Source: Hymenobacter gelipurpurascens
GTDB lineage: Bacteria; Bacteroidota; Bacteroidia; Cytophagales; Hymenobacteraceae
Reading direction: 5' to 3'
Assembly: GCF_900187375.1 (NCBI RefSeq)
Contig: NZ_FYEW01000002.1
Coordinates: 806,001 to 870,000 of the forward strand
DNA: 64,000 nt
A program made the position numbers and the translations under genes. Below, piece after piece: positions 1-64,000 of the stretch. Each line of letters opens with the position of its first letter. Within the stretch, counting starts at the first letter, position 1. The notes below the pieces were generated by a model. That model made no database searches and was not told where the DNA came from. It saw nothing but the letters and a program-made list of their open reading frames with translations.

Positions 1-1
1 C

Positions 2-418
2 GAGGTGAAGGAGTACGCCAAATCCGACGCGGCCTACGAGGCGGCTCTGGTGTTTGACGCCAACAACGCCCAGGCGCTCAACAATTACAGCTACTACCTT
101 TCGTTGCGCGGCGAGAAGCTGGCAAAAGCAAAGGAAATGGCCGGGAAGCTCGTGAAGCAGAATCCCGACAACGACACCTACCTCGATACGTATGGCTGGG
201 TGCTCTATAAAATGAAAGACTATGCTGGCGCTCGTCAGCAATTTGAGCTAGCGCTCAAAACAACCAAAGATGCAACCGTAATCGAGCATTACGGCGACGT
301 ACTCTATCAATTGGGCGAGCGGGATAAAGCCCTGGCGGAGTGGCAGCGGGCCCAGAAACAGGGCGGCGCTTCTGCTCTGATTGACCGCAAGATTAAAGAC
401 AAGAAACTGTATGAGTAA
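2..418 (+). CDS. TPR-repeat protein, 5' end outside window
   Basis: The reading frame is open to the left edge, so the N-terminus is missing; the first GTG (position 5) is probably internal. The visible 138 residues form three to four tetratricopeptide units with the usual alternation of Ala, Gly, Tyr and Leu (for example NNYSYYLSLRG, DTYGWVLYKMKDY and EHYGDVLYQLGERDKA). TPR arrays are protein-interaction scaffolds. The stop codon overlaps the next gene, a DUF4292 lipoprotein, by 8 nt, and an EnvC-like protein overlaps that one in turn, so the three are very likely one translationally coupled envelope operon. I recall this order as recurrent in Bacteroidota. The exact partner or substrate cannot be told from the fragment. 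Confidence 0.85.
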   Translation, partial: EVKEYAKSDAAYEAALVFDANNAQALNNYSYYLSLRGEKLAKAKEMAGKLVKQNPDNDTYLDTYGWVLYKMKDYAGARQQFELALKTTKDATVIEHYGDVLYQLGERDKALAEWQRAQKQGGASALIDRKIKDKKLYE

Positions 419-1181
419 ATATATTCCGCTGGTTCTGCTGAGTGCCGTTTTGCTATTGGGAAGCTGCCACCGCAAACTGGCTCCCACTGGTGCCAAAACC
501 GGTTCGGCTAAAGCACCAGAAATGGTGAAGGCAACGAACGTTGAGTTCAGCTACCTCAAAGCCAAAGGCAAAGTATCCATCGACTTTCCGGGGGTGCAGC
601 AAACAGCCAACCTGAACGTGCGCATCCGCAAGGACAGTGTTATTTGGATGTCGGCTTCGTTGGGCATTGAGGGCTTCCGGGCCTACATCACCCGCGACTC
701 AGTAAAAGTGCTTTTCCCGCTGCAGCGCGAATATTATACCGGCGACTACGCTTACCTGAGCCGCGTGCTGAACGTTCCCGTTACGTTTGAGCGGGTGCAG
801 GCATTGCTGCTCGGCGACTATCTGCCGGCCAGCCCTTCCAGCGCTGCCGTCCCAACTATTAGTACTGATGGTGGAACGCAACGCGTGCAGTATGAACAAA
901 GCGGCGTGCTGGTGCAGCAGCTCATTGATCTGGCGAAGTCCAGGGTGCAGCAGCTGACTGTCCAGGATCAGCAGACGCAGAACAACCTCAACGTAGACTA
1001 TTCCGATTTTCAGCCACTCACTCCGCAGAGCCAGCTTTTCGCGCATACTACACTGCTGAAAGTACAGCAGGCGAAAGGCGCGCCTTCTTCCGTTACGGTT
1101 AACTACCGCAACGTCGATCTGGACAAAGAGCGGCTTTCCTTCCCCTTTTCGGTACCCAAAGGCTATGCGCGGAAGAAGTAA
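411..1181 (+). CDS. DUF4292 family lipoprotein
   Basis: The 256-residue product starts at the ATG that overlaps the TPR gene's stop; a longer in-frame extension to 381 lies inside that gene and is unlikely. It has a lipoprotein signal: a short basic N-terminus, a hydrophobic stretch, and the lipobox LGSC with Cys at residue 19. The rest reads as extended beta structure (for example FSYLKAKGKVSIDF and DSVIWMSASLGIEGFRAYIT), as in DUF4292, a Bacteroidota family thought to resemble the LolA/LppX lipid-carrier fold. That likeness is recalled from the family, not shown here. The 3' end overlaps the EnvC-like gene by 17 nt. A role in envelope or lipoprotein handling is inference. Confidence 0.85.
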   Translation: MSKYIPLVLLSAVLLLGSCHRKLAPTGAKTGSAKAPEMVKATNVEFSYLKAKGKVSIDFPGVQQTANLNVRIRKDSVIWMSASLGIEGFRAYITRDSVKVLFPLQREYYTGDYAYLSRVLNVPVTFERVQALLLGDYLPASPSSAAVPTISTDGGTQRVQYEQSGVLVQQLIDLAKSRVQQLTVQDQQTQNNLNVDYSDFQPLTPQSQLFAHTTLLKVQQAKGAPSSVTVNYRNVDLDKERLSFPFSVPKGYARKK

Positions 1182-2562
1182 GCCGTGGCTACTGTTGCCC
1201 CTCCTTGTTGTGCTTGCCGGGCCTGCCAGTACGGCGGTAGGCCAGCAGCGCAAGCGCACCACCTCTTCTAAATCATCAGGTACCGGCAGAACTACCAAAA
1301 CCAAGGCCCAACTGGAGCGGGAACGGCGGGCAACTCTGTTGCGCATCAAGGAAGCCAGCCGCATTCTGGAGCAGACCCAGAAGCAGAAGCAGGCTTCCGT
1401 GGGCCAGTTAAATGCGCTGAAAGAAAAGCTTACCGTCCAGCAGGGCGTTATCCGCAACATCAGCAATGAGCTGAACTACATCGAAAACGACGTAGTTCAG
1501 ACTGAAACGCAGGTACAGCGCACGCGCCAAAGCTTGGAGCAGCTGAAGGCTGAATACGCACGTCTGATTTACATCGGCTCCAAGACGGCGAATAGCTACA
1601 ACCGGGTGATGTTCCTGTTTGCTTCGGAATCGTTCAACCAGTTCATGCTGCGCCTGCGCTACATTCGGCAGTACGCCGAGGTACGGAAAGCGCAAGCCGC
1701 CCAAATCACTAATACGCAGCAGCGGCTCAGCCAGCAGCTTACCGGCCTTAAAGAGAAAAAAGAAGAAAAGGGCACACTGCTGCATAGCCAGCTCTCCGAG
1801 AAGAAGAACCTGCTAACGCTTAAAACCCAGCAAGACCAGGTAGTTACCAAGCTCAGCCAGCAGGAAGAAAGCCTACGGCAAGAATTGGTGGCGCGTCAGC
1901 AAGCCATCAGTCGGTTGGATAACCTGATTGCCCTGAAAGTAAAAGAGGAAATTGCCCGGGCGGCCCGCCTCGCCGCGCGCCGCGCTGCCGCCGCTAAAGC
2001 TGCTGCTGCCCGTGCCAGTAACCCCACCGCTGCACCCCGCCCCGGCGATGCCCCCTCGCGCGCCAGCACCGCAGCCGCCGAAGCTGCCGAAGTAGCCGCC
2101 GCCGAGCGGGTGGACCGCGTGACCCTGACGCCAGAAACCGCTATCCTGGCCTCTTCCTTCAATGATAACCGTGGCCAGCTACCGTGGCCGGTAGGCCGGG
2201 GCTTTATTTCCCAACGCTTCGGCCGCCACAACCACCCGGTACTGAAGAACGTGGTGGTAGAAAACCGGGGAGTAGATATTCAAACCAGCGCCGGCGAACC
2301 GGTACGCTCCGTCTTTGATGGCAAAGTGCTCACTATTGCCAGTGTGCCCGGCATGAACACGATTGTGATGGTACAGCATGGCGACTACTTCACGGTATAT
2401 GCCAAGCTGCGGAGCGTAAGCGTGACGGAAGGCCAGCAGATCAAGGCGCGCCAGACCATCGGCACCGTGTATACTGATGCGGAAGGCACCTCCGAGGTGC
2501 AGTTTCAGGTGTGGCACAACAGCTCCAACCTGAACCCCGAAAACTGGCTAGGGCGCAAGTAG
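1165..2562 (+). CDS. EnvC-like murein hydrolase activator (degenerate LytM/M23 domain)
   Basis: The 465-residue protein has an N-terminal signal segment (LLLPLLVVLAGPASTAVG), a long coiled coil at about residues 40-275 rich in Gln, Glu, Lys and Arg, an Ala-rich linker (about 268-310), and a C-terminal LytM fold (about 340-465). The catalytic M23 residues look lost: the first His-Asp motif reads ENRGVD, the HxH position reads YAKL, and the last strand reads FQVWHN without the usual HFE. Coiled coil plus a dead LytM domain is the architecture of EnvC, which switches on amidases during cell division rather than cutting murein itself. It overlaps the upstream lipoprotein gene by 17 nt and probably ends at the hairpin at 2666-2686. 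Confidence 0.88.
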   Translation: MRGRSKPWLLLPLLVVLAGPASTAVGQQRKRTTSSKSSGTGRTTKTKAQLERERRATLLRIKEASRILEQTQKQKQASVGQLNALKEKLTVQQGVIRNISNELNYIENDVVQTETQVQRTRQSLEQLKAEYARLIYIGSKTANSYNRVMFLFASESFNQFMLRLRYIRQYAEVRKAQAAQITNTQQRLSQQLTGLKEKKEEKGTLLHSQLSEKKNLLTLKTQQDQVVTKLSQQEESLRQELVARQQAISRLDNLIALKVKEEIARAARLAARRAAAAKAAAARASNPTAAPRPGDAPSRASTAAAEAAEVAAAERVDRVTLTPETAILASSFNDNRGQLPWPVGRGFISQRFGRHNHPVLKNVVVENRGVDIQTSAGEPVRSVFDGKVLTIASVPGMNTIVMVQHGDYFTVYAKLRSVSVTEGQQIKARQTIGTVYTDAEGTSEVQFQVWHNSSNLNPENWLGRK

Positions 2563-2900
2563 CCGAACTGGCCTAGGGCGCTCATTTCATCCTAACAGAG
2601 AAGCCGGCAGCCTCTTTGCGGTGAGTCTAGTGGCCTACAGCACCCAACGGAAAGGGCGAAAAAAAACACCGTACAGCATACGGTGTCTTTCTGAGCTATG
2701 AAAACAAACTTAGCTATCAGTAATCCCTCTCCCGAAACAAACGCAGCAAGCTGCAGTCTGCCACGGGACAATCCCCGATAACATGACGAAAGATAAGTGT
2801 CTTTACATATGATTTGCACCTGATTTCGCCGAAACAACGGTTTATCTCGGTGAAGATCTTGTTTACCTGCTTCGCAGAGGATAAAAGCTGGTGGTTGACC
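2563..2900. other. Intergenic region between convergent genes
   Basis: No convincing gene. It holds one GGCCTA motif near 2630 and a bidirectional terminator at 2659-2690. The 81-codon reverse frame here has no recognisable sequence features. Confidence 0.6.
2659..2690. terminator. Bidirectional intrinsic terminator
   Basis: An 8-bp perfect stem (ACACCGTA / TACGGTGT, 2666-2686) with a 5-nt loop is preceded by a run of eight A and followed by CTTTCT. It can stop the envelope operon on the plus strand and the GAF-LytTR gene on the minus strand, although the latter ends about 215 nt away. Confidence 0.7.
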
Positions 2901-6241: not shown

Positions 6242-8212
6242 ATGAAGAAGTTGTTGCTGCGCGCAGTTGCTCCTGTATTAATTGGGACAACGCTAGGCCA
6301 CTTAAGCATGGCCCAGATCAGGCCCCAAGTACCCCCGGCCCCAAGCGCACAGCCCAACGACTCCTTACAAACGATAATGGAGCTGCCGCCAGATTCCCTG
6401 GTGGCAGTTCCTGTTCCAGTAGATTCCGCCCGCCTTGTATGGCTGCAGACTCCACCCGAGCTGCGGGACTTAGTAGGCGACCGAATTCAGTGCTTCGAAA
6501 CCGATGTTCCGCACGCGTTCAACCCATCGGTTTTGGCGTTTGTACGCCTGTTTACGGAACGGCAGCGCACGTATACTCAGCGCGTATTGGAGCGCGAAAA
6601 CCTGTACTTCCCGCTTTTCGAGAAGTATCTGGCTAAGTACAACCTGCCTACAGACCTGAAGTATCTAGCGGTAGTAGAATCAGCGCTGATACCCACGGCC
6701 AAATCGCGGGTAGGTGCTACGGGCCTGTGGCAGTTTATGGGCCCTACGGCCAATGATTTGCGCCTGAAGCGCGATGAGTGGGTGGATGAACGTATGGACC
6801 CCGAGAAAGCCACCGAGGCAGCCTGCAAGCACTTACGCTACCTCTACGGCGTTTTTCACGATTGGGAATTGGTATTAGCGGCCTACAACTGGGGTGCCGG
6901 CAATATGCAGCGCGTAATCAGGCGGACGGGCAAGAAAACGTTCTGGGAAGTCTACCCAAACCTGCCGGCCGAAACACGCAACTACGTGCCCACCTTCACG
7001 GCCATCATGTACACCATGAAGCATGCGCAGGAGCACCAGTTGCACTCTCCTACCCTGCGCTACCAGTACGCCGAGCCCATGGACACCCTGCAGCTGGGCG
7101 GCCGGGCCTTTGACCTGACCCGCCTGGCCAGGGCCTGTGGCTTCACCGACTCGATGGCGCTTGTGCGGCAAAACCCAGAGCTCCGCAAGACCTGGTTGCC
7201 AGCCGGATACCGGCCATATACAGTTCAGCTGCCGGCCACTGCCCGCCCAATGCTGGCCATGGTTGATAGAGCAACACTGTTTGATTACTGCCAGCCCCTG
7301 GCAGAGCTTCCTACACCTCTTTCGCCTCGCATTACCCCTCTGATGGGGGTAACGCCCGTGGTTACCAGGGGCTTGCTGGCCGATGGAGCCCCGCGCGAAA
7401 CCGAGCCGACGACAGAGCCGCGGTTCCGCCGCGTCCGTCATACGGTGCGCCGTGGCGAGACAATTGCTTCTGTAGCCGAACGCTATGATGTAAGCCAGAC
7501 GCAGGTTCGGCGCTGGAATGAATTGCGCAAAGGCCAGTCCCTTTCGTCGCGCCGCCAATTGGTGGTGTTCCTACCGATTGCGCCATCCGCTTCGGCTGCT
7601 CAAACTGTTGTTGCGATAGCGCGCAAGCCACAGTCCGTGCTTTCGCGCGTACCGGAAGTGGGGCAGATTGCTGCTGCTAGTCCTGAAACGGAGCCCGCAA
7701 CCCCGAGCTCGATCGTAAAAGCAGAAATTTCCCGTAGCGTAAAAACTGCCAGGCCAGTCCGGGCAGAAGCGGTGGTAGCTTCAGTCCGGGCAATTGAGGC
7801 CGATGACTCCGTACCGGCCGACTACACCGTTCGCCGAGGCGACTTCATTGAGAAGATTGCCCGCGAACGGAATCTGACGGTGGCCCAGGTAATGACCTGG
7901 AACCATCTTACATCGGAAGTAGTGCAGCCGGGCCAGAAGCTGGTCCTGCACCCCACCGACGACCAAGAGGAAGACGCTAGGCCAGTTGCGACGGAGATAA
8001 TTACAGCAAAGCCTGTTCGTACGGCTTCCGCACGCCCCGAGCCAGCCACGAAAGCACCCGGTTTGCCTAAAGTGCATTTGGTACAGCCCGGCGATACGCT
8101 GTATAATATATCACGCCGCTATCAGGGCGTTACGGTGGAGCAGCTGCGCCAACTGAACCATCTCAAATCTGACGAAGTGAAACCAGGGCAAAAGCTAATT
8201 GTGGCTGGCTAG
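6242..8212 (+). CDS. MltD-like lytic transglycosylase with three LysM domains
   Basis: The 656-residue protein has a signal peptide (about 1-24, ending MAQ). The SLT domain is at about 118-260: catalytic Glu146 in VVESALIP, then GATGLWQFM and AAYNWGAGN, all hallmarks of family 1 transglycosylases. It cleaves murein between MurNAc and GlcNAc to form 1,6-anhydro ends. Three LysM peptidoglycan-binding domains lie at about 400-445, 528-571 and 611-655, separated by Pro/Ala/Thr-rich linkers. It begins 11 nt after gatA and so may be co-transcribed. Its stop TAG is part of an iterated TAGGCC motif, and a terminator follows at 8251-8277. Confidence 0.92.
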   Translation: MKKLLLRAVAPVLIGTTLGHLSMAQIRPQVPPAPSAQPNDSLQTIMELPPDSLVAVPVPVDSARLVWLQTPPELRDLVGDRIQCFETDVPHAFNPSVLAFVRLFTERQRTYTQRVLERENLYFPLFEKYLAKYNLPTDLKYLAVVESALIPTAKSRVGATGLWQFMGPTANDLRLKRDEWVDERMDPEKATEAACKHLRYLYGVFHDWELVLAAYNWGAGNMQRVIRRTGKKTFWEVYPNLPAETRNYVPTFTAIMYTMKHAQEHQLHSPTLRYQYAEPMDTLQLGGRAFDLTRLARACGFTDSMALVRQNPELRKTWLPAGYRPYTVQLPATARPMLAMVDRATLFDYCQPLAELPTPLSPRITPLMGVTPVVTRGLLADGAPRETEPTTEPRFRRVRHTVRRGETIASVAERYDVSQTQVRRWNELRKGQSLSSRRQLVVFLPIAPSASAAQTVVAIARKPQSVLSRVPEVGQIAAASPETEPATPSSIVKAEISRSVKTARPVRAEAVVASVRAIEADDSVPADYTVRRGDFIEKIARERNLTVAQVMTWNHLTSEVVQPGQKLVLHPTDDQEEDARPVATEIITAKPVRTASARPEPATKAPGLPKVHLVQPGDTLYNISRRYQGVTVEQLRQLNHLKSDEVKPGQKLIVAG

Positions 8213-8250
8213 GCCACTACCAGCTGCTGAAATACAGACTATTTGTTCTG

Positions 8251-8415: not shown

Positions 8416-8447
8416 CTTTGATTCCGGCTGATTTCGCCCCAACTTGC
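8416..8447 (+). repeat. 32-nt element upstream of maeB, copy 1
   Basis: It reads CTTTGATTCCGGCTGA then TTTCGCCCCAACTTGC. A second copy (29 of 32 identical) lies at 10967-10998 upstream of ruvA. Here it ends 41 nt before the maeB ATG. It starts with TTTG, as does a Bacteroidota -33 element, so a shared promoter or operator is possible. Confidence 0.6.
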
Positions 8448-8488
8448 TGATTAAACTCCTCAAGAGTGCCACCCGTTGCCACCCGCGT

Positions 8489-10762
8489 ATGCTTAAAATA
8501 AACAGACAGGACGCCCTGAATTATCACTCTCAGGAACCCGCCGGCAAAATTGAAGTAGTGCCCACCAAGCCCGTCAGCACCCAGCTCGACCTCGCCCTGG
8601 CCTACTCTCCCGGCGTTGCGGAGCCCTGCAAAGAAATTGCCGCCGACAAAGACAACGTATATAAGTATACTGCCAAGGGTAACCTGGTAGGCGTTATCAG
8701 CAACGGAACCGCTGTGCTAGGCCTGGGCAACATCGGCCCCGAAGCTTCCAAGCCCGTGATGGAAGGCAAAGGCGTACTGTTCAAGAAGTTCGCGGGCATC
8801 GACTGCTTCGATATCGAGATTGATGCCACCGACCCCGACGAGTTCATCCGGATTGTAAAATCCCTGGAGCCTACGTTTGGCGGCATCAACCTGGAGGATA
8901 TCAAAGCCCCCGAGTGCTTCCGCATCGAGACGGCTCTGCGCGAGCAGATGAATATTCCGCTCATGCACGATGATCAGCACGGCACGGCCATTATTACCTC
9001 GGCTGCCCTGCTGAACGCGTTGGAGCTGGTAAACAAGAAAGTTGACGAAATCAAGCTGGTCGTGAGCGGTGCCGGCGCGGCGGCCATCAGCTGCCTGCGC
9101 CTGTACCTGGAGCTGGGCGTGCTGGTTGAAAATGTGGTGGTGTTCGACAAGGACGGCATCATTACGCCCGACCGCACTGACCTGGCTGACATGCAGCTGC
9201 GCTTTGCTACGCATAGGCCTATCACCACACTGGCCCAGGCCATGGATGGCGCCGATGTGTTCCTGGGTCTATCGGCGGCGAATGTGCTGCCGGCCGAGCT
9301 GCTGCTGAAGATGGCCGATAATCCCATCGTGTTTGCGCTAGCCAACCCAGACCCCGAAATTGCCTACGAAGTAGCCATGGCTACTCGTCCAGATATCATT
9401 ATGGCTACGGGCCGCTCCGACCACCCCAATCAGGTGAACAACGTGCTCGGCTTTCCCTACATTTTCCGGGGAGCTCTGGACGTGCGGGCCACGGAAATCA
9501 ACGAGGCCATGAAGCTGGCGGCCGTGCACGCCCTCTCGGAGCTAGCCAAGGATGCCGTGCCCGACATGGTAAATAAGGCCTACGGCGACAATACCCTCAC
9601 GTTCGGCCGCACCTACCTCATCCCGAAGCCTCTTGATCCGCGCCTCATCACGGTGGTAAGTCCGGCAGTAGCTAAGGCCGCTATGGAAAGCGGCGTGGCC
9701 CGCATCCAGATTGAGGATTGGATGGCCTACGAGGACCAACTGCGCAGCCGCCTGGGCGTGAACCAGAAGCTGATGAACCGCATCACGTCGGCCGCGAAAT
9801 CGGGGCCGAAGCGGGTGGTATTTGCGGAAGGCGACAACTACAAGATTCTCAAGGCCGCGCAGATTCTGCACGACGAGGGCATTGCCCAACCTATTCTACT
9901 GGGCAACCGCCAGAAAATTGAGCAGATTGCTAGGGCCAACAACCTCGATCTGGAAGGCTGTAAGGTCATCGATATCCTGGAGAACGACGCCAAGCGCGAG
10001 GAGTACGCTAACCTGCTGTACCAGAAGCGGCAGCGCCGGGGCATCACGCTCTACGAAGGCCGCCGCCTGCTCCGCGAGCGGAACTACTTTGGCTCCATGA
10101 TGCTGGAAACCGGCGAGGCCGATGCCTTCATCACGGGCCTGAGCAAGGACTACGGCAAATCGATTTTGCCTTCCTTACAGGTAATTGGCGTGGAAGACGG
10201 CGTGAAGCGCGTGGCTGGTATGTATATCATCCAGCACAAGAAAGGCCCCTTCTTCTTCGCCGATACAACCGTGAACATCGACCCTACGGCCGAGGAAATG
10301 GTGGATATCATCGGGCTGACGGCCCGCGCCGTGAAGTTCTTTGATACGGAGCCACGCATGGCCGTTATCAGCTACTCCAACTTCGGCTCCAACCCCGGCG
10401 ACCTGCCCGACAAGGCCCGTAAAGCTACCGAACTGGCCAAAAAGCGCTACCCCGAGCTGATTCTGGACGGTGAGATGCAGGCCAACACCGCCCTGAACCC
10501 CGAGCTGCTGCAGGAGCAGTACCCCTTCTCGGAGCTGGCCGCGAAAGGTGGCGCCAACACCCTGATTTTCCCGAATGTAATCAGCGGCAACATTGCCTAC
10601 AAAGTGATTCAGGAAATTGGAGGTGCTGAGGTAATCGGGCCGATTCTGATGGGTATGCGCAAGCCGGTGCACATCCTGCAGCTGGGCGCTTCCGTCCGCG
10701 AAATCGTGAACATTGCCTCCATTGCTGTTGTCGACGCGCAAACTTTGCACAACCGCCTCTAG
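8489..10762 (+). CDS. maeB: NADP-dependent malic enzyme with C-terminal phosphotransacetylase-like domain
   Basis: The 757-residue product starts at ATG 8489 (MLKINRQDALNYHSQ); a TTG 45 nt upstream adds no family-like sequence. The N-terminal half is malic enzyme: LALAYSPGVAEPC, ISNGTAVLGLGNIGP, DDQHGTA, and the Rossmann loop VVSGAGAAA. From about residue 430 it becomes a phosphotransacetylase-like domain (VVFAEGDNYKILKAAQIL to the C-terminus), the two-domain MaeB layout. It converts malate to pyruvate plus CO2 and NADPH; the C-terminal domain is regulatory in studied homologues. The stop codon TAG lies in a TAGGCC motif, followed by a strong terminator. Confidence 0.95.
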   Translation: MLKINRQDALNYHSQEPAGKIEVVPTKPVSTQLDLALAYSPGVAEPCKEIAADKDNVYKYTAKGNLVGVISNGTAVLGLGNIGPEASKPVMEGKGVLFKKFAGIDCFDIEIDATDPDEFIRIVKSLEPTFGGINLEDIKAPECFRIETALREQMNIPLMHDDQHGTAIITSAALLNALELVNKKVDEIKLVVSGAGAAAISCLRLYLELGVLVENVVVFDKDGIITPDRTDLADMQLRFATHRPITTLAQAMDGADVFLGLSAANVLPAELLLKMADNPIVFALANPDPEIAYEVAMATRPDIIMATGRSDHPNQVNNVLGFPYIFRGALDVRATEINEAMKLAAVHALSELAKDAVPDMVNKAYGDNTLTFGRTYLIPKPLDPRLITVVSPAVAKAAMESGVARIQIEDWMAYEDQLRSRLGVNQKLMNRITSAAKSGPKRVVFAEGDNYKILKAAQILHDEGIAQPILLGNRQKIEQIARANNLDLEGCKVIDILENDAKREEYANLLYQKRQRRGITLYEGRRLLRERNYFGSMMLETGEADAFITGLSKDYGKSILPSLQVIGVEDGVKRVAGMYIIQHKKGPFFFADTTVNIDPTAEEMVDIIGLTARAVKFFDTEPRMAVISYSNFGSNPGDLPDKARKATELAKKRYPELILDGEMQANTALNPELLQEQYPFSELAAKGGANTLIFPNVISGNIAYKVIQEIGGAEVIGPILMGMRKPVHILQLGASVREIVNIASIAVVDAQTLHNRL

Positions 10763-10782
10763 GCCAGTAGCACATCTTCGTA

Positions 10783-11852: not shown

Positions 11853-14800
11853 TTGAATACCGGTAAGAAGTCCCTTGCTGCCTCACTGGTAGCCGTTGTG
11901 TCGTTGGTGGCCTGGTGGTCGCAAGCCAAACCGAACAGCCACTCGGCTGAGCCGTTTGCGATGCAGAAACTATGGTCGTGGCTGCCAGACGGTACGCGGC
12001 GCTTGCATGCCTTTGCCCCGGATACGCCTACCACCGATACCACGCGCTACAGGCCTAGCCGCCGGCCCAAGGTCAGCCCGCAGGACCGCATCGGGACGCC
12101 CTTCTCGCCGCAGCGCCGCCGTTCTCCGCTGGTGCTGCCGCTGCCCGGCAACGTGAACCTCGACGTTCAGCCGGATGATAGCCTCCAGAACTTTGATATT
12201 CGGGAACGGATAGGCACGGAGCTGGATTTCCGTGACCCCAGCCGAATGACATTTGAGGAGTACTCGCGCTGGCAGCAGCAGCAGGCGGTGCGCAACTACT
12301 TCCGGCAGCGCTCCAACGGTGGGGTGGCCGGCGATGCTAATACCCCTGGCCCACAGCGCCTGATTCCCAAAATCTACCTCGGCCCCATGGCCGACCGTAT
12401 TTTTGGGGGCAGCTACGTAGATATTCGCCCGCAGGGTTCCGTGACGCTGCGCATGGGTGCTCGTTTTAACCGCAACGAGAACCCCACCCTCACGCTGCGG
12501 CAGCAGCGCGTCGGCGACTTTCAGTTTGATCAGAACCTCAACCTCAACCTGACCGGTCAGATTGGGGAGAAGCTGAAACTGACGTTTAATTACGACACCC
12601 GCGCGGCCTTCGACTTCGAGAATAACATGAAGCTCGATTACACCGGCTACGACACGGATATCATCCGGAAGGTGGAGCTGGGTAATGTGAGTTTGCCCCT
12701 GAACAACTCGCTTATTACGGGGGGCCAGAATCTGTTTGGCCTGAAGACGCAACTACAGTTTGGGCGCTTGGGCGTAACGGCAGTAGCCAGCACTTTGCGC
12801 GGCCAGTCAGATGAAGTGCGCATTCAAAATGGTGGCCAGAGCCGGCCGTTTGAGTTGAAAGCCAGCCAGTATGAGCGCGACCGGCACTACTTCCTGTCGC
12901 AGTTCTTCCGCGACCGGTATGACGGGGCCCTACGCAACCTGCCCACGGTGCAGAGCGGCATTGAAATCCGGCGCCTGGAAGTGTACGTGACCAACGATAA
13001 CCGCCAGAGCGACAACCTGCGCAACGTGGTAACGCTGATGGACGTGGGCGAGCCGTTGCGGGTGTACCGCAGCAGCTTTACGCAAGGCTCCCGCCCCACT
13101 GCTCCCGCCGACAACGCCGCTAACACGCTGTTCGGCAGCATTATTAGGCCCGGCACCCCAAATGCGGATGCCCGCGGCGACTTGAGTGTAGAAAACTACC
13201 TGGGTGGCCTACGCCTGGAAAAGAACATCGATTACGAGCACATTCGGGCCCGGAAGCTGGACCCGCGCGAATACACGTTCAATGCTCAGCTCGGCTATAT
13301 CTCGCTGAATACCCAGCTGTTGCCTGAGCAGGTACTGGGTGTTTCGTTTGAGTACCTCTACAACGGTAAGACCTACAAAGTGGGGGAAACCGTGGACGAT
13401 TACTCCAACGTAGGCCAGGACCAGGTCATCTTCCTGAAGATGCTGAAGGCCACCAACCCCGCTATAGGCCTGGCCAACCCGACGGAGAACCCCGCCAACA
13501 CCAATCTGCAGACGCGCAACCTGCCGACGTGGGACCTGATGATGAAAAACATCTACCCGCTGAACGCTTCGCAGCTCAACCGCGACAATTTCCAGCTGCA
13601 GTTGGTGTACAAAGACGACGTGACGGGCGTCGATCTGATTTCGCTCAAGGAGGGCCAGAACATCCAGAACCGTCCGCTGATTGAGGTGCTGAACCTCGAC
13701 AACGTAAACCCCAACAACGACCGCAACCCCGACGGCAACTTCGACTTCTTCCCCGGCATCACCATTGATACGGAGCTGGGCAAGATCATCTTCCCGGAGG
13801 TGCAGCCCTTCGGCAGCTACCTGGCCGCCCAGTTTGATACTACGGGCGCCAATGGCGCGGCGGAGCGGGAGCTGGCGCGCAAATACGTGTACCGGGAGCT
13901 GTACAACCAAGTACAGAGCGACGCGCAGCAGCGCCAGGAAAAGGATAAGTTCTTCTTGCGCGGCCGGTTCCAGGCCACGTCTACCAACGAAATTAGCCTG
14001 CCCGGCATTGGTGTGGCGCAGGGCTCGGTGCGGGTATATGCCGGTAGCACGCTTCTGCAGGAAGGCGTCGACTACCAGGTTTTCTACGATCAGGCCATCG
14101 TGAAGATTCTCAACCCCAGCTACCTGAACTCGGCCAATGAGCTGCGGGTGCAGTTTGAGAAAAATGCGCTGGTGCAGGTGCAACCGCGCAAGCTGGTGGG
14201 CGCCCGGTTTGACTACCGCCTGAACAACGACGTGAACTTCGGGGCCACGGTGCTACACCTGCTCGAAAACCAGGCCCCCGGTATCAACCGCGTGAACATC
14301 GGCGACGAGCCCGGCAATAACACCATTTACGGCTTCGATGTAAATGCCCGCCGCGAGTCGAGGGCCATTACCAAGTACCTGGATATGCTGCCGTTTATCT
14401 CCACCAAGGAGGTATCGTCGGTAGCGTTTAGCGGCGAGTTTGCGCAGCTGCTGCCCGGCCAGTCGAAGCTGGGGAACGGCGGTACGGGCGGCGAAAATGG
14501 CGTTTCGTATATCGATGACTTCGAAAATTCCCGCACTCCCTATACGCTGGGCGGCACCAATTCCGCTACTACCTGGCGGCTGGCCTCTACGCCGGCACCC
14601 TTATTGGGCGCCACTACTACTGGCCTGGAGTCGGCTTACCGCCGCGCCAAGCTGGCCTGGTACACCGTAGACCAGAGCTACTACACCGGCGGCTCGGCCA
14701 AGCCTCAGAACATCGGCACCAACGACCTAAAAAACCATTATGTGCGGGGCATCAAGCGGACGGAGATATTCCCCAACCGTGACGTAGGCACCACGGGCAA

Positions 14801-17800
14801 CGCTTTTGAGTATACCCTGGACATGGCCTACTTCCCCGATGAGCGCGGCCAGTACAACTACACGCCCAACGTAGGCGCCAACGGCCGCACGTTTGCTGCT
14901 ACCTCCGGCGCTGCCAACGCGACGCGCTACGCGGGCATTTCCCGCGAAATCACGTTTGACACGGACTTCGACAACGCCAACGTGGAGTATCTGGAGTTCT
15001 GGATGATGGACCCGTTCATCAACAGCGCTACTGGCCTAGCCAACGTAACGGACTCCGACGGGCACAACGCGCCCAACACAACGGGCGGCGAGTTGTACAT
15101 CAACCTGGGCTCCGTCTCGGAAGATGTGCTGAAGGACGGCAACCAGCACGAGTTTGAGAACGGCCTACCGGTTGACGACGACCTAGCCGACGTGAAACCC
15201 ACTGATTTCGGCCGCGTCACGCGTCAGCCCTTCCTGACCGATGCCTTCAATGCCGCCAATGGTGCCCGCGCCCGCCAGGACATAGGCCTAGACGGCGTAA
15301 ACAGCGACGCTGAACGGGCGCTGCCCGGCATTCCGGCTCCGTACACCGGTTTCGCTGACCCGGCCGCCGATAACTTCCGCCATCACCTCGACCCCAGCTT
15401 CGATCAGCAGGATGCCAAGATTCTGGCGCGCTACAAGGACTTCAATGGCCTGGAGAACAACTCGCCTGAGGGCAGCCAGCTCAGCAATACTGCCTATCCC
15501 GACAAAGAAGACCTCAACCGCGACAACGTTATTTCCGATACGGAGCGCTACTACGAGTATAAACTTGCGCTGCGCCCTGGCCAGCTGGCAGTAGGCCAGA
15601 ACTACATCGTGGATAAAGTCACGAACAAGAACACCGATACCGGCGGCGACGAGGTGACGTGGTACCAGTTCCGGATTCCGGTGCGCCAGCCCACGGGCGT
15701 GGTAGGCGTGCCAGCCGGTCAGGACTTCGGCTTCAAGTCCATTCGGTTCCTGCGGATGTATCTCACGCAGTGGGAGCAGCCGGTAGTACTGCGCATGGTG
15801 CAGCCCCAGTTTGTGGCTAACCAGTGGCGCCGCTACCTCAACCGGATTCAGCAGACCGGCCCCGTGCTCAACCCCGATACCGACGCGGATGCTTTCGACA
15901 TCTCGACGGTGAGCCTGGAAGAAAACGGCTTGTCCAATGTTCCTGCTGGCACTACCGATGCTATTCCGTACGTGCTGCCCCCCAACATTCGCCGCGACAA
16001 GGAGTATGGCTCCAGCACCGTAAACCGCCTGCAGAACGAGTCGAGCCTGCGCCTGACGGTGGATGGCCTACGCGACGGATTTGCCAAGGCCAGCTACAAG
16101 AACGTGAGCACCAACATGCTGCGCTACAAGCGCCTGCGCATGTTCCTGCACGCCGAAAGCCAGGACCGCAGTGTGCGCGACGGCCAGGTGCGCGCTTTCT
16201 TGCGCATCGGCACCGATTACTCCCAGAACTACTACGAGTACTCTATTCCGCTGCAGCTGACGCAGCCCGGTCAGTTGCCAAGCAATCCGGAGGAACTGGC
16301 TAATGCCGTGTGGCCTATAGAAAACCGCATTGATGTAGCCTTCCAGCAGTTTATCGATGCCAAAGCCGCCCGCAACAAGGCTGCCAACGGTGCCATAGAT
16401 TACGCCATTCCGTTTACCATCACCGATGACAAGGGCGGGCAGATTACGGTAGTCGGCAACCCCGATTTCTCGGCGGTGCAGGGCGTGATGATAGGCCTAC
16501 TGAACCCCCGAGACGACAACGCGCCTAAGTCCATTACGCTGTGGGCCGATGAGTTGCGGGTGTTCGACTTCGATACCGAAAGTGGCTGGGCCGCTACGGC
16601 CCGCTTCAACGCCAAGCTAGCCGATCTGGCCAACGTGACGGCCACGGGCAGCTACATCACCACGGGCTTTGGTGGCCTACAGGACCGAGCGCAGCAGCGC
16701 TCCATCGATAACATCACGCGCGGCGACCTGAATGCGACTATTGCCGCCGATAAGTTCTTCCCCGAGAAGCTAGGCCTCCGGGTGCCGGTGCTGGTGCAGG
16801 CTGGCATTGAAAGTCGTGCGCCCAAGTACGACCCGCTCGACCCCGACACCAAGCTCACGCAGTCGTTGGAGAAGTTCGAGACGGCGCAGGAAAAGGCTGA
16901 TTACAAGAAGGAAGTTATCGACCAGACCAGCCAGCGCAGCATCAGTGTGCTGAACGTGCGCAAGGAGCGGACGAACCCGGAGAAGAAGGTGATGCCCTAC
17001 GACATCGAGAACTTCGCGGTGAGCTACTCCTACACCGAGCGCCTGCACACCGATATCCGGACCGACCGCGACTACACCCGCACCTACACCGGGGCACTGG
17101 CCTACGTCTACCAGACGGTGCCCAAGAGCTACACGCCGCTGGCCAAAGTAAAGGCCTTCGACTCGCCGTACCTGAAGATGCTGCAGGAAGTGAACTTTAC
17201 GCCACTGCCCTCGCGCTTCTCCTTCCGGGCCGACCTTGACCGTCGCTACAACGAGCGGTTCCTGCAACGCACGCTGGAGCCCGGCCAGGTTCCCGTTACG
17301 GATGGTATTCCGGGCGTGTTCCAGAAATCGTTCTTCTTCAACCGCATCTATGATATGCGCTGGGACCTGACCAAGGCCCTGGCCCTAGACTACACGGCCA
17401 CCAACCGCTCCGTGATAGATGAAGAGCCCGGCACCACCATCGGCGACAGCGATATTGCCAAGCGCAACCGTCAGCTGATCCGCGACAACCTCTTCAAGCG
17501 CGGCGGCCGTACCACCAACTTCAACCAGACCATAGCCGCTACTTATCGCCTGCCTCTCGACAAGTTCCCGCTCACCGATTGGCTCTCAGCCGATGCGCGA
17601 TACGCCGCCAACTACACCTGGCAGGCTGCTTCCACGGCCCTCACAGCTCCCATCAACCCACTTGAACCTAACGGGCCCACGGCTCCGCTAAACCTGGGCA
17701 ATACCATCCAGAACAACGGCGAGCTGAGTGCCAATGGCAAGATTGATTTGGTGAAGCTCTACAACAAGGTGCGCTTCCTCAATATCATCAACAACGCTCC

Positions 17801-44486: not shown

Positions 44487-44510
44487 CTCCTCCCCTAGCC
44501 GCTACTCGTT

Positions 44511-47500: not shown

Positions 47501-48041
47501 AACCGAGTTCCGCGACCTGTTCCTAGGCGACACCACCCAGCGCCTGCAGGAAGTGGCCGGTGCCGCAGGGCCCAAGGAGTGCAACATTGAGACGGACTTG
47601 CAGGTGCTAATACCCGACCGCTACGTGGCCAGCGTATCGGAGCGGTTGCAGCTGTATAGCAAGCTGGATAGGGCCAAGAACGCCGAGGAGCTGCGCAAGG
47701 TGCTCAACGGCATGACGGACCGCTTCGGGCCGCTGCCCGCCGAGGTGGAGCAGCTAGCCGACATTGTGCGCCTGCGCTGGCAGGCCTGCCACGCCGGCTT
47801 CGAGAAGCTGACGCTGAAGAAGAACCTGCTGAAAGGCTTCATTCCGGCCACCAACAACGAGCGGTACTTCCAGAGCAACACCTTCGGCAACATCCTTAGT
47901 TACGTGCAAACCCACCCCCGCTCGGCCTCCATGAAGGAGCGCAAGGAGCAGCTCATCATCAGCATCGAGGACGTGAAAAATGTGCAAGCTGCCCAACGAA
48001 TTCTGAATGAGTTGGGGAGTGAGGAGAAGGTGGGGGTGTAA
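44511..48041 (+). CDS. mfd: Transcription-repair coupling factor Mfd
   Basis: The 1176-residue product starts at TTG 44511, supported by the promoter box at 44479. UvrB-homology region (IPYRIELFGDEVETIRTFDP-like, about 240), CarD-like RNA polymerase interaction domain (LVPGDYVVHQDYGIARFAGL), then RecG-like translocase: Walker A CGDVGFGKTEVAIRAA, box II LLVIDEEQKFGV, SATPIPRTLHFSLMGARDLS, and the TRG end with RVGRSNKKAYCYLL. The C-terminal TRCF domain contains YKLD-like repeats. Mfd removes stalled RNA polymerase and hands the lesion to UvrA. A Lys/Ala-rich insert (about 130-165) has low complexity. A terminator follows. Confidence 0.96.
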   Translation: MKVTDLLKLYTLDPTGMTVGARLNPATRHSLKPADKAEPPVRLHLKGLVGSQDAVLAAAMHQEFPDQHHLFILHDRDEAAYFLADLQHLVPDEEPLLFPSSYKRPYSFDETENANVLMRAEVLNKLNSHRGPKTTAEQAADDAEDATPEAEGQPKGKKRVKATAKETAGALIVTYPEALFEKVINKKSLVANTFLVKVGDKLDVNFVSDMLAEYDFERTDFVYEAGQFAVRGGIVDIFSYANELPYRIELFGDEVETIRTFDPESQLSVEKRQQVSIIPNVQTKLLQETREAFLDFIPKNTAIWAKDLRQALDVVEESFDRAEAGFKEMLEVAGGTQVVSKPEDLFETNKSFKKLLEGFAVVEFGKRFYYKTGEDFQFNSKPQPSFNKDFNRLVKNLHDNQQKGYTNIIAAEQVRQADRLRTIFDELDNNVQFQHMLIGLREGFIDETLKLLVYTDHQLFERFYRAQETRKFSKKKALTLKELRTLVPGDYVVHQDYGIARFAGLTQVEINDRLQEAIRLVYRDDDVLTVSIHALHKIAKYSGAEGNPPTMSKLGSPEWENKKKSVKKKVKDIAAELIRLYAKRKTAPGHAFAHDSFMQAELESSFIYEDTPDQAKATEDVKRDMEVPHPMDRLVCGDVGFGKTEVAIRAAFKAVADGKQVAILVPTTILAMQHYKTFRERLSNLPVTVEYVNRFKSTKQIKETLGRVAEGKTDILIGTHRLTNKDVKFKDLGLLVIDEEQKFGVKTKDKLKEIKVNVDTLTLSATPIPRTLHFSLMGARDLSVIATPPPNRQPVQTELHVFDELLVRDAISRELKRGGQVFFVHNRVKDIEEQANMILRLVPDARVTYVHGQMDGDLLEKRMMKFVDGDYDVLVATTLIESGLDIANANTILINRAHMHGLSDLHQMRGRVGRSNKKAYCYLLTPPVAGLPSDARKRLSTLEEFSDLGAGFNVAMRDLDIRGAGNLLGGEQSGFINDLGFETYHQILDEAVTELKETEFRDLFLGDTTQRLQEVAGAAGPKECNIETDLQVLIPDRYVASVSERLQLYSKLDRAKNAEELRKVLNGMTDRFGPLPAEVEQLADIVRLRWQACHAGFEKLTLKKNLLKGFIPATNNERYFQSNTFGNILSYVQTHPRSASMKERKEQLIISIEDVKNVQAAQRILNELGSEEKVGV

Positions 48042-48101: not shown

Positions 48102-48701
48102 TTACAAGTGGCCTAGGCCTTGTCGAAAATACTGAAAACTGGCCGACTGATTTCTTTCTGGGTCCAGATGTGGACTGATGGTTTCTGCCCACTCCACTTT
48201 GGCTTTTCCCGCCAGATAATACTTGCCTTCCTGCAACACGCGCCACAGAGTTTCCCAAGTATCCGAAATAGCATCGGGGTCGTGTGGTAGGCCACTAAAA
48301 TGTTGCGGACGGACTCGTGGATAAGCTGTTTGAATAGCTTCCCGGTCGCCGAGAAACCACGCTTCCAACTCCTGCACAGCCAGGCGCGTGATGATGCGGA
48401 AGGGTTGCCCGACAGCCGTGGTTTTGGTCAGCAGGCCTACATCGGCCACTACCTTTTCCAGTTCTGCTTTCCGGCGTCGGCAGTCTGTGTCGGCATCCAT
48501 CAGGATTACGACCCGCAAATCGGGCTGGTGCGGAAACTGGCGAGCGTAAGTCTTCAGGCGGCCGGGCAACCGCTGAAACAGGTCGGTTTTGCCGCGGTGG
48601 GGGTAACAGCTCCACGTAGCATCGGGTGGCAGCAGCTTGGGAAGCAGAATATTCAGCGCAGCCTCCGCCGAGGGTTCTTCCAGCAGGAACTCGATGTGCA
48701 T
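48102..48701 (-). CDS. DUF4276 (TOPRIM-like) protein paired with an AAA ATPase
   Basis: The 199-residue protein is predicted to have a TOPRIM-like fold: N-terminal strand and acidic cluster (IEFLLEEPSAEAAL, Glu8/9/13), the DxD motif Asp69-x-Asp71 in VILMDADTD, and the DUF4276 hallmark QELEAWFLGDREAI. TOPRIM domains use such acidic residues for metal-dependent DNA or RNA cleavage in OLD, Gabija and PARIS systems. It starts 1 nt after the ATPase stop and is surely co-expressed. A nuclease effector of a two-gene defence module is inference; a housekeeping role is possible. The two motifs TAGGCC/GGCCTA at its C-terminus are in frame (Gly-Leu-Gly). Confidence 0.82.
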   Translation of the reverse strand: MHIEFLLEEPSAEAALNILLPKLLPPDATWSCYPHRGKTDLFQRLPGRLKTYARQFPHQPDLRVVILMDADTDCRRRKAELEKVVADVGLLTKTTAVGQPFRIITRLAVQELEAWFLGDREAIQTAYPRVRPQHFSGLPHDPDAISDTWETLWRVLQEGKYYLAGKAKVEWAETISPHLDPERNQSASFQYFRQGLGHL

Positions 48702-48702
48702 G

Positions 48703-49959
48703 CTACTGCGCGGCTGAAGTGCGTGGTGCTAATGGGTCGCCGAGGCGGAAGAAGTTGCTGGTCCAGAGGTAGCCCAGTGGCGAACCATCTTCCACCAGCT
48801 CCTTCACCTGCGGAATGTCGGCCGTGCGCGTGGCCTGGGTGTAGCCATCAGCGCCGCGGTCCAGAATCCAGACCTGCTCCGGCTCCAGTGCATCCAGCAG
48901 AAAAGGCGAATGAGTAGCTACCAGCAGCTGCCTCGTTTCAGTGACCTTGATCAGCTCCTCGGCCAAACGAGGCAGCAGGCGCGGGTGCAGCTCGTTTTCA
49001 GGCTCTTCAAGGCCTAGTAGGCCAGTAGCATTCGGCTCATATAGCAGCGTGAGCAGGGCTGCTAGCCGCATCGTGCCTTCCGACATATACTGGGCCGGCA
49101 GAGGCTTCTCAAATGAGGCATCCTTGAAGCGCAGTAACAGTCTCTCATCGGAAGTAATTTCCGTCACGATATCTGCTAGGCCAGGTACCCAGCGCCGCAA
49201 CTGCGCGGTGATACGAGCCAGCGCCTCAGGGTGCTTGGTGTGCAGGTAATACAGCACGTTGGGTAGGTTGTCGCCATTGGCCGATAACTTCTCCCGCGGC
49301 CCTGCATCGGAATAGCCTTTCAGATGATCGTCGGTGAGGTGGATGTAACGGTAGGTTTCTATAAGATTCTTGATAGCATGTGCATAAGGACTAATTTTAA
49401 GGTTGTATGCAAATGCATACCCTAATACTGATATATCCCTTGCTCCCAAATACATCCTCTTGTTAAAAGAGGGTTTCTCCCGTCCCTCCTCATCATGATC
49501 TGAAAAGACTATATCTGATGTTAGCCCTGTAAAACCTTCCTTATCAGAAGTAAAGGTTTTAAACAATTTTCCCTCGCCAAATATTCTCCCATCAGGCAAG
49601 TAAAACCCCTCTTCCGGAACAGTGAGCTTATTATCGTCACCGTCTATGTGTAGATAATATCTAATATTCCCTAGTTCGCTATTTAACCCCACTTCAAACT
49701 CAATTGGTCCTTCACTTGCGCGCGTACGCATCCCTGCAAACCGATTTCTATCCTGCCAGGCCTGTTGCAGGTTACCACTTACCGCTTCGGCCAGAAATGC
49801 CAGCGCGTCAAGGACTGTGGATTTTCCACTGCCGTTAGGGCCGATGAACACCGTCAGGGGCGTTAGGTCGCGCAGCTCCACGTCACGCAGGGCGCGGTAG
49901 TTTTTGATGCGTAAGTAAGTGAGGCGGGGAAAACCGGAAGCCGCAGCAGCGTCAGACAT
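48703..49959 (-). CDS. AAA/SMC-like ATPase (AAA_21 type) with variable middle
   Basis: The 418-residue protein begins RLTYLRIKNYRALRDVELRD and has Walker A GPNGSGKS (39-46), then a variable middle, the signature YMSEGTMRLAALLTLL, Walker B LLGLEEPENELHPR with the extra Glu, and H-loop LLVATHSPFLLDAL. This is the RecF/SMC-type ABC ATPase of OLD-like, RloA-like and AriA-like families. Its partner is DUF4276, 1 nt downstream. The middle (49381-49680, residues about 94-193) is about 39% GC and lacks GGCCTA, unlike both ends, so it may have been exchanged. Defence function is inferred from the family pairing. Confidence 0.85.
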   Translation of the reverse strand: MSDAAAASGFPRLTYLRIKNYRALRDVELRDLTPLTVFIGPNGSGKSTVLDALAFLAEAVSGNLQQAWQDRNRFAGMRTRASEGPIEFEVGLNSELGNIRYYLHIDGDDNKLTVPEEGFYLPDGRIFGEGKLFKTFTSDKEGFTGLTSDIVFSDHDEEGREKPSFNKRMYLGARDISVLGYAFAYNLKISPYAHAIKNLIETYRYIHLTDDHLKGYSDAGPREKLSANGDNLPNVLYYLHTKHPEALARITAQLRRWVPGLADIVTEITSDERLLLRFKDASFEKPLPAQYMSEGTMRLAALLTLLYEPNATGLLGLEEPENELHPRLLPRLAEELIKVTETRQLLVATHSPFLLDALEPEQVWILDRGADGYTQATRTADIPQVKELVEDGSPLGYLWTSNFFRLGDPLAPRTSAAQ

Positions 49960-54352: not shown

Positions 54353-54380
54353 AAAAAGAGTGGCCTAGGCCACTCTTTTT
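54353..54380. terminator. Perfect 28-bp palindrome with GTGGCCTAGGCCAC core
   Basis: AAAAAGAG-TGGCCTAGGCCA-CTCTTTTT is fully self-complementary, so it can form a long hairpin with A and T runs at the ends: a bidirectional terminator built on the iterated motif. It lies between the META and FAD-oxidase genes, both on the minus strand, and would serve the latter. Confidence 0.85.
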
Positions 54381-56038: not shown

Positions 56039-56094
56039 CAAAAAACCCCACCACATCTGGCAGGGCTTTTTGGTGCAGGAGTGGCCTAGGCCAC
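56039..56094 (-). terminator. Terminator-like region with GTGGCCTAGGCCAC palindrome
   Basis: The sequence 56039-56075 contains an A run, CCC... and GGG with a T run, a weak bidirectional hairpin. Immediately beside it, 56081-56094 is the 14-bp palindrome GTGGCCTAGGCCAC. It lies directly after the S8 protease gene (minus strand). Confidence 0.6.
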
Positions 56095-58033: not shown

Positions 58034-58477
58034 ATGCATCATATCGTGTACATGAGCCGGGCCGTGCGCCCGTTGTCCGACCAGGACTTGCAACAACTGC
58101 TGGCCCAGTGCCGTCACGACAATGCCCTGCACCACGTAACGGGCGTGCTGTTTTATAGCCACGGTAATATCGCGCAGCTGATTGAGGGCGACCCGGCTAT
58201 TCTGGGGCCGCTGTATGAAAAAATTGCCCAGGATGGACGCCACTCCAACGTCCGGCAGCTCATCAACCGGCCCATTACCCGCCGCAGCTTTCCCCACTGG
58301 TCAATGGCGTTTCATCCGCTCGAAACCGAGGGATTCTCGTCGCTGGAAGGATTTTTTCTGCCCAACCAGGTGCCGCCCACTCCCGAAACGCTCACCATTG
58401 CCGATGCCATGCTGGTAGACCTGGTACGTCAGGCCGTATTCGGGGCAGATGTGGCACCGGCGGCCGTGCCCGCCTAG
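58034..58477 (+). CDS. BLUF-domain blue-light photoreceptor
   Basis: The 147-residue protein consists almost only of a BLUF domain. The flavin-site residues are in place: Tyr6 (HHIVYMSRA), Asn30 (CRHDNALHHVTGVLFY) and Gln48 (GNIAQLIEGD), the Tyr-Gln pair of the light-driven hydrogen-bond switch. FPHWSMAF with its Trp/Met corresponds to the fifth strand. A C-terminal tail (about 100-147) is helical. It binds FAD and senses blue light; an output domain is absent, so signalling is by partner. The histidine kinase 57 nt downstream is the obvious candidate, but this is inference. The stop TAG is inside TAGGCC. Confidence 0.93.
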   Translation: MHHIVYMSRAVRPLSDQDLQQLLAQCRHDNALHHVTGVLFYSHGNIAQLIEGDPAILGPLYEKIAQDGRHSNVRQLINRPITRRSFPHWSMAFHPLETEGFSSLEGFFLPNQVPPTPETLTIADAMLVDLVRQAVFGADVAPAAVPA

Positions 58478-58499
58478 GCCACTTTTTTGCGCCAGTGCC

Positions 58500-63126: not shown

Positions 63127-63213
63127 AGTAAGCTGACGTGGACGTGTTTATAACCATATAGATTGCTGAATATACAAATAATACACAGGCCTGCCCCCTG
63201 CTACCAAAGCAAG

Positions 63214-63242
63214 AAGGCCCCCCGGAATTTCCGAAGGGCCTT
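63214..63242 (-). terminator. Terminator after the DUF2382 gene
   Basis: The stem AAGGCCC / GGGCCTT is extended by inner CGG/CCG pairing, with an A-rich left side that becomes a T-rich run on the minus strand. Confidence 0.7.
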
Positions 63243-63269
63243 ACATATGTTGCTCCTCAACTGCGCTAC

Positions 63270-64000
63270 CTATCTGTTGCGCTGGTTGTAATCGGAATCA
63301 GAATCCGTGTTAGTGCGGGTATCAACGCCCGTACGGCCATCCAAGCGCTCTACGTCTACTTCGGTTTTGCGCACTGTGTCGCGCACTACTTCTTCGCGCT
63401 CGGTTACTTCCTTGCCTAACGATACTTCCTCTACTACTCGGGCCTCTTTGCCTACTACAGCACGCTCTGCGCTTTCTGTAATCTCAATATTGCCTTCCTT
63501 GAAAGCGGCAAAATCGGCTTCGGTAGCGGGTCGGTCTACGGGGCGGCGCTCTACATTCACGTGCTCTTCGCGGAGGCGTACACTAGCCTCCACGGGGCGC
63601 TCCACAATGCGGCTCCGCAACCGAGCACCGCCTGTCTGCTCTACTCGCTTGCCTACCTGCAGGTTTTCCTCGATTACCTGAGCAGTAGCGCCACCTTGCA
63701 CATTGCTAGCAGTGCTACCAGCGCTATAGTTGTTGCCCGTCTGGTAGCCGGTCTGGCTAGCACGCTCATTTACATCTACTGCACCGGCTTCGTCCAGAAT
63801 CTGGGCTGCTTGGTGCGCGTTTTCGGCCGAGTGCGCATGCACCGTTACTACAGAACCACTGTTGCGGGCCACATGAGAATAGCGACGGGCGTCATCAGAG
63901 TCGTCGCCACCAAACAGGTTGCTAAAGAAGTTGCTGATACCGTCACCAGCCTGCTCAGCCGTACGGCCGGCTGCGTCGGCAGCGCCTTCTACGGCGGTAC
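63270..64000 (-). CDS. YsnF/AvaK-type stress protein (DUF2382), 5' end outside window
   Basis: The frame is open to the right edge, so the N-terminus is missing; the GTG at 63872 is internal (the open frame continues with DDARRYSHVARNSG). The visible part has an N-terminal general-stress-like region (SGSVVTVHAHSAENAHQAAQILDEAGAVDVNERA) and a DUF2382 domain (about from VIEENLQVGKRVEQTGGARLRSRIVERPVEASVRLREEHVNVERRPVDRPATE to the C-terminus). The end is highly charged (RTNTDSDSDYNQRNR). These proteins are linked to desiccation and oxidative stress; molecular function is unknown. Confidence 0.85.
   Translation of the reverse strand, partial: TAVEGAADAAGRTAEQAGDGISNFFSNLFGGDDSDDARRYSHVARNSGSVVTVHAHSAENAHQAAQILDEAGAVDVNERASQTGYQTGNNYSAGSTASNVQGGATAQVIEENLQVGKRVEQTGGARLRSRIVERPVEASVRLREEHVNVERRPVDRPATEADFAAFKEGNIEITESAERAVVGKEARVVEEVSLGKEVTEREEVVRDTVRKTEVDVERLDGRTGVDTRTNTDSDSDYNQRNR

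Follow-up and report, generated by a model that had tools for sequence, protein, structure and literature searches.

The iterated word in the window and the genome

The window analysed here comprises 64,000 bases of Hymenobacter gelipurpurascens DNA (bases 806001–870000 of contig C2; genome G000, 5.06 Mb in nine contigs), in which a short word, GGCCTA or its complement TAGGCC, is highly iterated. We counted 182 copies (94 + 88), compared with 39.3 expected by composition and 44.3 by a first-order Markov model, under which this was the most over-represented 6-mer of the window. The iteration is confirmed, and it is larger than first noted: the initial annotation had put the excess at about three times, and it is nearer four. 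The core TGGCCTA occurred 105 times (54 on the plus and 51 on the minus strand; 10.3 expected), and the extended word, derived below, is ASTGGCCTAS (S = G or C). The sites considered in the window are as follows.

1–64000, both strands: whole window as a sample of the iterated word, with 105 TGGCCTA, including 91 STGGCCTAS and 56 ASTGGCCTAS
2567–2576, plus strand: extended word directly past the M23 peptidase gene (1165–2562)
8209–8218, minus strand: extended word whose TAG (8210–8212) is the stop codon of a lytic transglycosylase/LysM gene (6242–8212)
10759–10768, minus strand: extended word whose TAG (10760–10762) is the stop codon of a malic enzyme/phosphotransacetylase gene (8444–10762)
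15030–15039, plus strand: extended word within the SprA gene (type IX secretion system; 11961–19355)
31327–31336, minus strand: extended word within the MutS gene (29986–32790)
44091–47156: longest word-free interval of the window (3,065 bases, word to word), mainly in the mfd gene (44511–48041)
54353–54380: 28-base perfect palindrome in a gap, made by two head-to-head words (TGGCCTAGGCCA, 54361–54372), with a T run at its end, terminator-like
56082–56093: another head-to-head pair (TGGCCTAGGCCA), likewise in a gap, with no run of four T within 12 bases
58474–58483, minus strand: extended word whose TAG (58475–58477) is the stop codon of the open reading frame (ORF) 58034–58477

Across the whole genome, GGCCTA occurred 13,105 times and the control word with reversed letters 3,181 times. 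The contrast sharpened with length: there were 7,638 copies of TGGCCTA, about one per 660 bases, versus 560 of its backward control, and 6,726 of STGGCCTAS versus 130. We then took a 404-kb sample, consisting of the window and 17 stretches of 20 kb, and counted the 10-mers around the core. AGTGGCCTAG was found 137 times (1.2 expected) and ACTGGCCTAG 109 times (1.4 expected); AGTGGCCTAC (60 copies) and ACTGGCCTAC (56 copies) were also enriched. These four 10-mers give the consensus ASTGGCCTAS with the core TGGCCTA, which bears out and refines the extended form proposed at first sight. Information content was about nil beyond three bases 5′ and four bases 3′ of the core. Twenty of the 21 single-letter variants of the core stood at 0.57–1.40 of expectation, the sole enriched one being AGGCCTA (4.15 times). 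Given this lack of enriched variants, the word is sharply defined. We refer to TGGCCTA (ASTGGCCTAS) as word A, and to the words of other lineages described below as B (ACCTAGS), C (CCCTAGG), D (CTACCCC), E (GCTAGCC) and F (GGGGCCCC).

Codon use and placement relative to genes

Synonymous codons were permuted 30 times within each of 282 called genes in 384 kb of the genome. The genes contained 328 copies of TGGCCTA (209 sense, 119 antisense), and 62.4±6.2 remained after permutation; for ASTGGCCTAS the numbers were 143 and 6.8. Control words stayed near expectation (GGCCGA, 1.04; TGGCCAG, 1.10). Since permutation leaves only 62 of the 328 coding copies, codon bias does not explain word A, and the excess survives, in genes, the correction for codon bias that the initial annotation had named as its possible undoing. 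Codon, dinucleotide and trinucleotide bias were all rejected as its cause on the basis of the permutations and the expectation counts.

Genes were called by simple ORF scoring, so that coding and noncoding rates are approximate. With this proviso, the density of TGGCCTA was 1.08 per kb in called genes and 3.62 per kb outside them, a 3.4-fold difference. The word is indeed present in genes, in gaps and in both orientations, as had been claimed, but it is not evenly distributed between them. Convergent gaps were the richest (7.59 per kb), followed by tandem (4.28) and divergent ones (3.16). Density peaked in the first 25 bases from the stop codon (14.8 per kb) and was lowest in the 25 bases before starts (1.3 per kb), and in 38 of 272 genes the TAG of TAGGCC itself serves as the stop codon. 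Within genes we looked for a bias of word A towards gene ends and found none, the copies being evenly spread along the genes. Head-to-head pairs overlapping by a shared TA numbered 25 in 384 kb, and a T run accompanied three of them, one in the window. As only these three look like terminators, termination was rejected as the main role of word A. Insertions were likewise rejected as the source of the words, because only 2–4 of the 57–62 window words that could be aligned were gapped in another carrier of word A.

No strand preference was seen over 384 kb: by the sign of the GC skew, the G-rich strand had 300 words and the C-rich one 325. The sampled stretches showed no skew of the kind found in FtsK-orienting polar sequences (KOPS), which point toward the terminus. 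Spacing was near random (608 spacings; coefficient of variation 1.04 without close pairs). The missing polarity and the near-random spacing argue against both Chi and KOPS, and they disfavour the chromosome-organising site that had been among the first candidates. A related possibility is that the word binds a nucleoid, segregation or transcription protein which varies between lineages. The 3.4-fold higher density outside genes and the peaks in convergent gaps and just past stops would suit such a protein, but thousands of copies lie in genes too, at near-random spacing and without polarity, and we consider this explanation very improbable.

Word A is confined to one Hymenobacter clade

Among 120 genomes of the genus, four carry TGGCCTA in large numbers: H. 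gelipurpurascens (7,638 copies), H. wooponensis JCM 19491 (G203; 7,232), H. fodinae 92R-1 (G158; 7,212) and G199 (4,871). The other 116 have 432–1,361 copies. No excess was found in other genera of the family (257–835 copies in 84 genomes), and among 395 genomes of the phylum none but that of H. gelipurpurascens, itself a member of the genus, exceeded 525 copies of STGGCCTAS. In a tree built from SprA and malic enzyme, for which 17 of 20 genomes were used (G156, G195 and G138 were left out), a fully supported branch separates the four carriers from the rest. Their nearest relatives in this tree, G108 and G116, are without word A. The single-gene Mfd tree disagrees, placing three species with word D among the carriers, where they group with H. 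wooponensis and H. fodinae; this conflict possibly reflects transfer of mfd. By its mfd gene, the window has Hymenobacter species as its nearest named relatives, in line with its stated origin. Word A is confined to one clade. This restriction, together with the different words of sister lineages, goes beyond what the initial annotation had observed. The SprA gene of the window (gliding/type IX secretion) has 2,464 codons.

Retention of the word among carriers

Retention was counted on aligned words only (against other carriers, 57–62 of the window's 105), which are mostly genic, and the comparisons pooled here are interdependent. Over about 60 kb of syntenic DNA, 359 of 590 aligned words were identical between carriers, as opposed to 41 of 305 between carriers and three non-carriers. 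Control 7-mers with matched flanks were identical in 17–28% of cases. In aligned bases, H. gelipurpurascens is about equally distant from the non-carrier G108 (79.0% identity) and from H. fodinae (79.6%), but of its aligned words 3 of 33 are shared with G108 and 27 of 59 with H. fodinae (Fisher p = 0.0004). Measured against the average aligned base, word A was better conserved in 12 of 12 carrier pairs, and its 20-base flanks showed lower conservation in all 12. In the three non-carriers, the commonest differences in the letters aligned to the words of H. gelipurpurascens were C in place of the first T (31 of 100), G in place of the last A (33) and C in place of the second T (21).

These substitutions would also be expected from a shift in GC content, and to that extent they suit the idea that the word is an unrecognised by-product of mutation or codon bias. 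The codon shuffles, which leave 62 of 328 copies, the 20 of 21 variants without enrichment, the highest density lying outside genes, and retention among carriers at about twice the control rate or more all speak against it. We conclude that this explanation is largely refuted by the shuffles, the variant counts and the retention, and find it barely credible.

Other lineages carry other words

A survey of 122 samples, mostly about 20 kb long and with some genomes sampled more than once, covered part of the 120 genus genomes and showed that sister lineages bear other words, at a density like that of word A. Samples of this size misjudge some genomes (G124, G179 and G184 received no label from the sample and yet bear words genome-wide), and ten were too short or masked to be scored (G026, G151, G106, G159, G160, G166, G172, G041, G134 and G188). 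In whole genomes, word B was high in five of 120 (G080, 13,409 copies; G195, 12,402; G156, 12,131; G138, 7,949; G184, 7,546); the next genome had 1,473, and the four carriers of word A 656–1,243. Word D was high in 14 of 120 (3,370–7,943 copies; next genome 2,140; word A carriers 899–1,357). Words A, B and D are mutually exclusive genome-wide, no genome among the 120 being high in two of them. The remaining three words come from samples of one, two and four genomes, respectively: C from G059, E from G050 and G031, and F from G155, G084, G056 and G082.

In genes, these words exceeded codon shuffles 4.1-fold for A (in the other three carriers), 8.2-fold for B, 16.4-fold for C, 4.6-fold for D, 4.8-fold for E and 2.9-fold for F (as GGGCCCC); in three wordless genomes the same words stood at 0–1.3 of the shuffles. 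Words A to E have in common CTA followed by G or C. Preference for noncoding DNA was clear for A and B, and word D was chiefly in the sense orientation within genes (133 versus 37 antisense). A comparison of words A and D at corresponding sites covered 2–13 aligned words per pair, too small a number to bear on a replacement of one by the other.

The swapping of words between lineages is relevant to a role like that of Chi. Here the word would stop or redirect a nuclease of the RecBCD/AddAB type and thereby steer the cell's own DNA towards repair instead of destruction, and the dialects would track changes in the enzyme. Like Chi, which differs between species, the Hymenobacter words are short, sharp, enriched in the chromosome and replaced between lineages. 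Chi is polar, however, and the Hymenobacter word has no strand polarity; it is also far denser than Chi in Escherichia coli, and the two-fold symmetry of several dialect words is ill-suited to a polar signal. We regard a Chi-like role as quite improbable.

Outside the word carriers, the strongest gapped words were tandems of period 6–7 (AGCTnnnAGCT and others) and arms of the form AAAA..CCCC; for the other gapped hits, z was at most 13.7. Period-7 tandems (AGCTGTT-like; AGCTnnnAGCT) were found in the H. aerophilus group and a period of 6 in G094 (samples G108, G116, L105, L109, G157 and G094). Arms of the AAAGCCCCC type were enriched in L112, L113 and L131, mostly in noncoding DNA (AAGCCCCC: 1.76 per kb noncoding, 0.18 per kb coding), and look terminator-like.

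Accessory DNA

The plasmid pHsw1 of H. swuensis has 44 copies of word A in the 200 kb of it that were read (0.22 per kb; backward control 16), compared with 1.0 per kb in 60 kb of G199, which we take to be its host. In H. gelipurpurascens, a 20-kb stretch at the start of contig C4 had 0.45 per kb, whereas all 16 stretches from contigs C1–C3 and the window had 1.25–2.15; five of the ten proteins scanned in the C4 stretch are glycosyltransferases. One stretch of the word D genome G124 had 0.10 copies per kb (genome mean 1.13) and bears DUF2254 and DUF389 genes, as does pHsw1. Of the carrier stretches so compared, 11 of 14 were close to the mean of their own genome. These few stretches are suggestive of a scarcity of the word in some accessory DNA. 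Contig C5 of H. gelipurpurascens (L026; 5.4 kb, 31.5% GC) is unlike the rest of the genome, has no words at all and may be a mobile element or a contaminant.

Competence and methyltransferase genes

The initial annotation had proposed looking for competence genes, and the ComEC family was present in all 24 genomes tested, word-bearing or not, which makes DNA uptake possible. In Riemerella, another member of the Bacteroidota, transformation requires ComEC, DprA, ComF and RecA, as well as four proteins without known counterpart (PMC8459023). In view of these four proteins, a receptor for the word need not be a pilin.

The chief rival of an uptake function is a methylation-linked word of the kind that Elhai proposed for the cyanobacterial highly iterated palindrome HIP1 and its alternates (PMC4390886). 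The word would be read by a methyltransferase, either an orphan or one paired with a restriction enzyme. Its multiplication would then come from repair directed by methylation, or from selection for sites that are protected or that guide repair. The density of word A, about one per 660 bases, is close to the one per 1000 given for HIPs, and alternate HIPs are GC-rich palindromes swapped in related genomes (PMC4390886, Elhai 2015), as are several of the dialect words (CCTAGG, GCTAGC, GGGCCC). ASTGGCCTAS, however, is not self-complementary and thus not a palindrome of the HIP type. We searched four methyltransferase families and found none common to all four carriers: PF00145 was matched in H. 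fodinae and H. wooponensis (2/4), PF01555 in H. gelipurpurascens (1/4), PF02384 in H. gelipurpurascens (weakly), H. fodinae and H. wooponensis (3/4), and PF07669 in H. gelipurpurascens, G199 and H. fodinae (3/4). The open frames of the matches also differ in length among carriers. Still, PF02384 and PF07669 are related families of adenine methyltransferases, and each carrier matches at least one of them. A HIP1-like repeat, another of the first candidates, is disfavoured by the missing palindrome and by the lack of a common family among the four searched, and we rate it as unlikely.

Some further observations concern methylation and defence. On pHsw3 of H. swuensis, a Dam-type methyltransferase gene lies beside an HNH nuclease gene. 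The genus shows avoidance of GATC, which was absent from 25 of 122 samples (about 20–30 kb each) and stood at 0.46 of expectation in the genome of the window. Of 120 whole genomes, 44 had 0–47 copies of SGATCCA, the backward control of ACCTAGS, and 76 had at least 69; the GATC-free samples G136 and G100 belong to genomes in which SGATCCA is not scarce. In the window, at 48102–49959 on the minus strand, a DUF4276 gene adjoins an AAA_21 ATPase gene, by appearance a defence-type pair.

A candidate self-recognition word

We propose, at what we judge to be even chances, that ASTGGCCTAS serves as a lineage-specific word for self-recognition, acting like a DNA uptake sequence (DUS), without classing it as a DUS. 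A putative DNA-binding part of the Bacteroidota transformation machinery would favour fragments bearing the word, and these fragments would enter via ComEC and recombine into the chromosome. Word-bearing alleles would then spread, and intact words would replace mutated ones where this is harmless, that is, just past stops and at synonymous positions. Sister lineages may have shifted to other preferred words, giving rise to dialects, the majority of them with CTA plus G or C in common. We infer both the recognition of the word during uptake and the existence of a receptor. An uptake-like function would account for most of the facts: the excess, the clade restriction, the dialects, the retention amid variable flanks, the lack of polarity and the presence of ComEC. 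Of the three candidates named initially, an uptake signal fits best, being supported in part by the thousands of copies, the dialects, the retention, the apparent scarcity in some accessory DNA and ComEC.

Neisserial DUS are recognised by ComP, a type IV pilin that binds them. The Neisseriaceae provide the closest likeness: related species use different words along the phylogeny, with a CTG core, and some genomes are wordless (PMC3630211, Frye et al. 2013). The Hymenobacter words resemble these in length (about ten bases), in their thousands of copies, in dialects that follow the phylogeny and share a core, and in the wordless relatives. They differ in their core, which is CTA plus G or C and is present in five of the six, in that several are palindromic, and in being known here from sequence alone. 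According to Treangen et al. (2008; PMC2397512), the neisserial word is conserved while its flanks are more variable than average, and it is frequent past stops and rarer in acquired DNA; the Hymenobacter word, too, is kept amid variable flanks and is frequent after stop codons. The same source links the spacing of neisserial DUS to the length of gene-conversion tracts; the Hymenobacter comparison is based on one genome per species.

Several observations weigh against an uptake-like function. Near-misses are common among known uptake sequences, and the one-letter variants of word A are not enriched. ComEC occurs with and without a word and so does not discriminate; most sampled genomes are wordless despite having it. 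Word F lacks the CTA core, and several dialect words are palindromic, with palindromes present in B, C, E and F. Noncoding preference is weak for D (1.54 versus 1.27 per kb) and F (3.44 versus 2.92 per kb), and just 3 of the 25 head-to-head pairs look terminator-like. That pHsw1 has a carrier as its host follows from our assumption that G199 is H. swuensis. Finally, the even spread along genes differs from the uptake sequences of Pasteurellaceae, which lean to gene ends (PMC2346458).

It is possible, if somewhat doubtful, that Hymenobacter as a whole has a system of about six lineage self-recognition words, several of them palindromic, with at most one per lineage. Iterated self-recognition words have been described mainly from Neisseriaceae, Pasteurellaceae and cyanobacteria, and in the open-licence literature of PubMed Central, a scope that leaves aside subscription papers and preprints, we found no report of one in Hymenobacter or other Bacteroidota. 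A six-word system of this kind would be an uptake-sequence system in Bacteroidota, and its DNA receptor would have to be unrelated to the type IV pilins to which this role is assigned in Neisseriaceae and Pasteurellaceae. Should the scarcity in accessory DNA be borne out, the words would double as markers of acquired DNA. Because species of one genus differ in their word or lack one, and because the acquisition of a word can be located between sister species, the origin and replacement of such words and the recognition of DNA at the Bacteroidota surface become testable.

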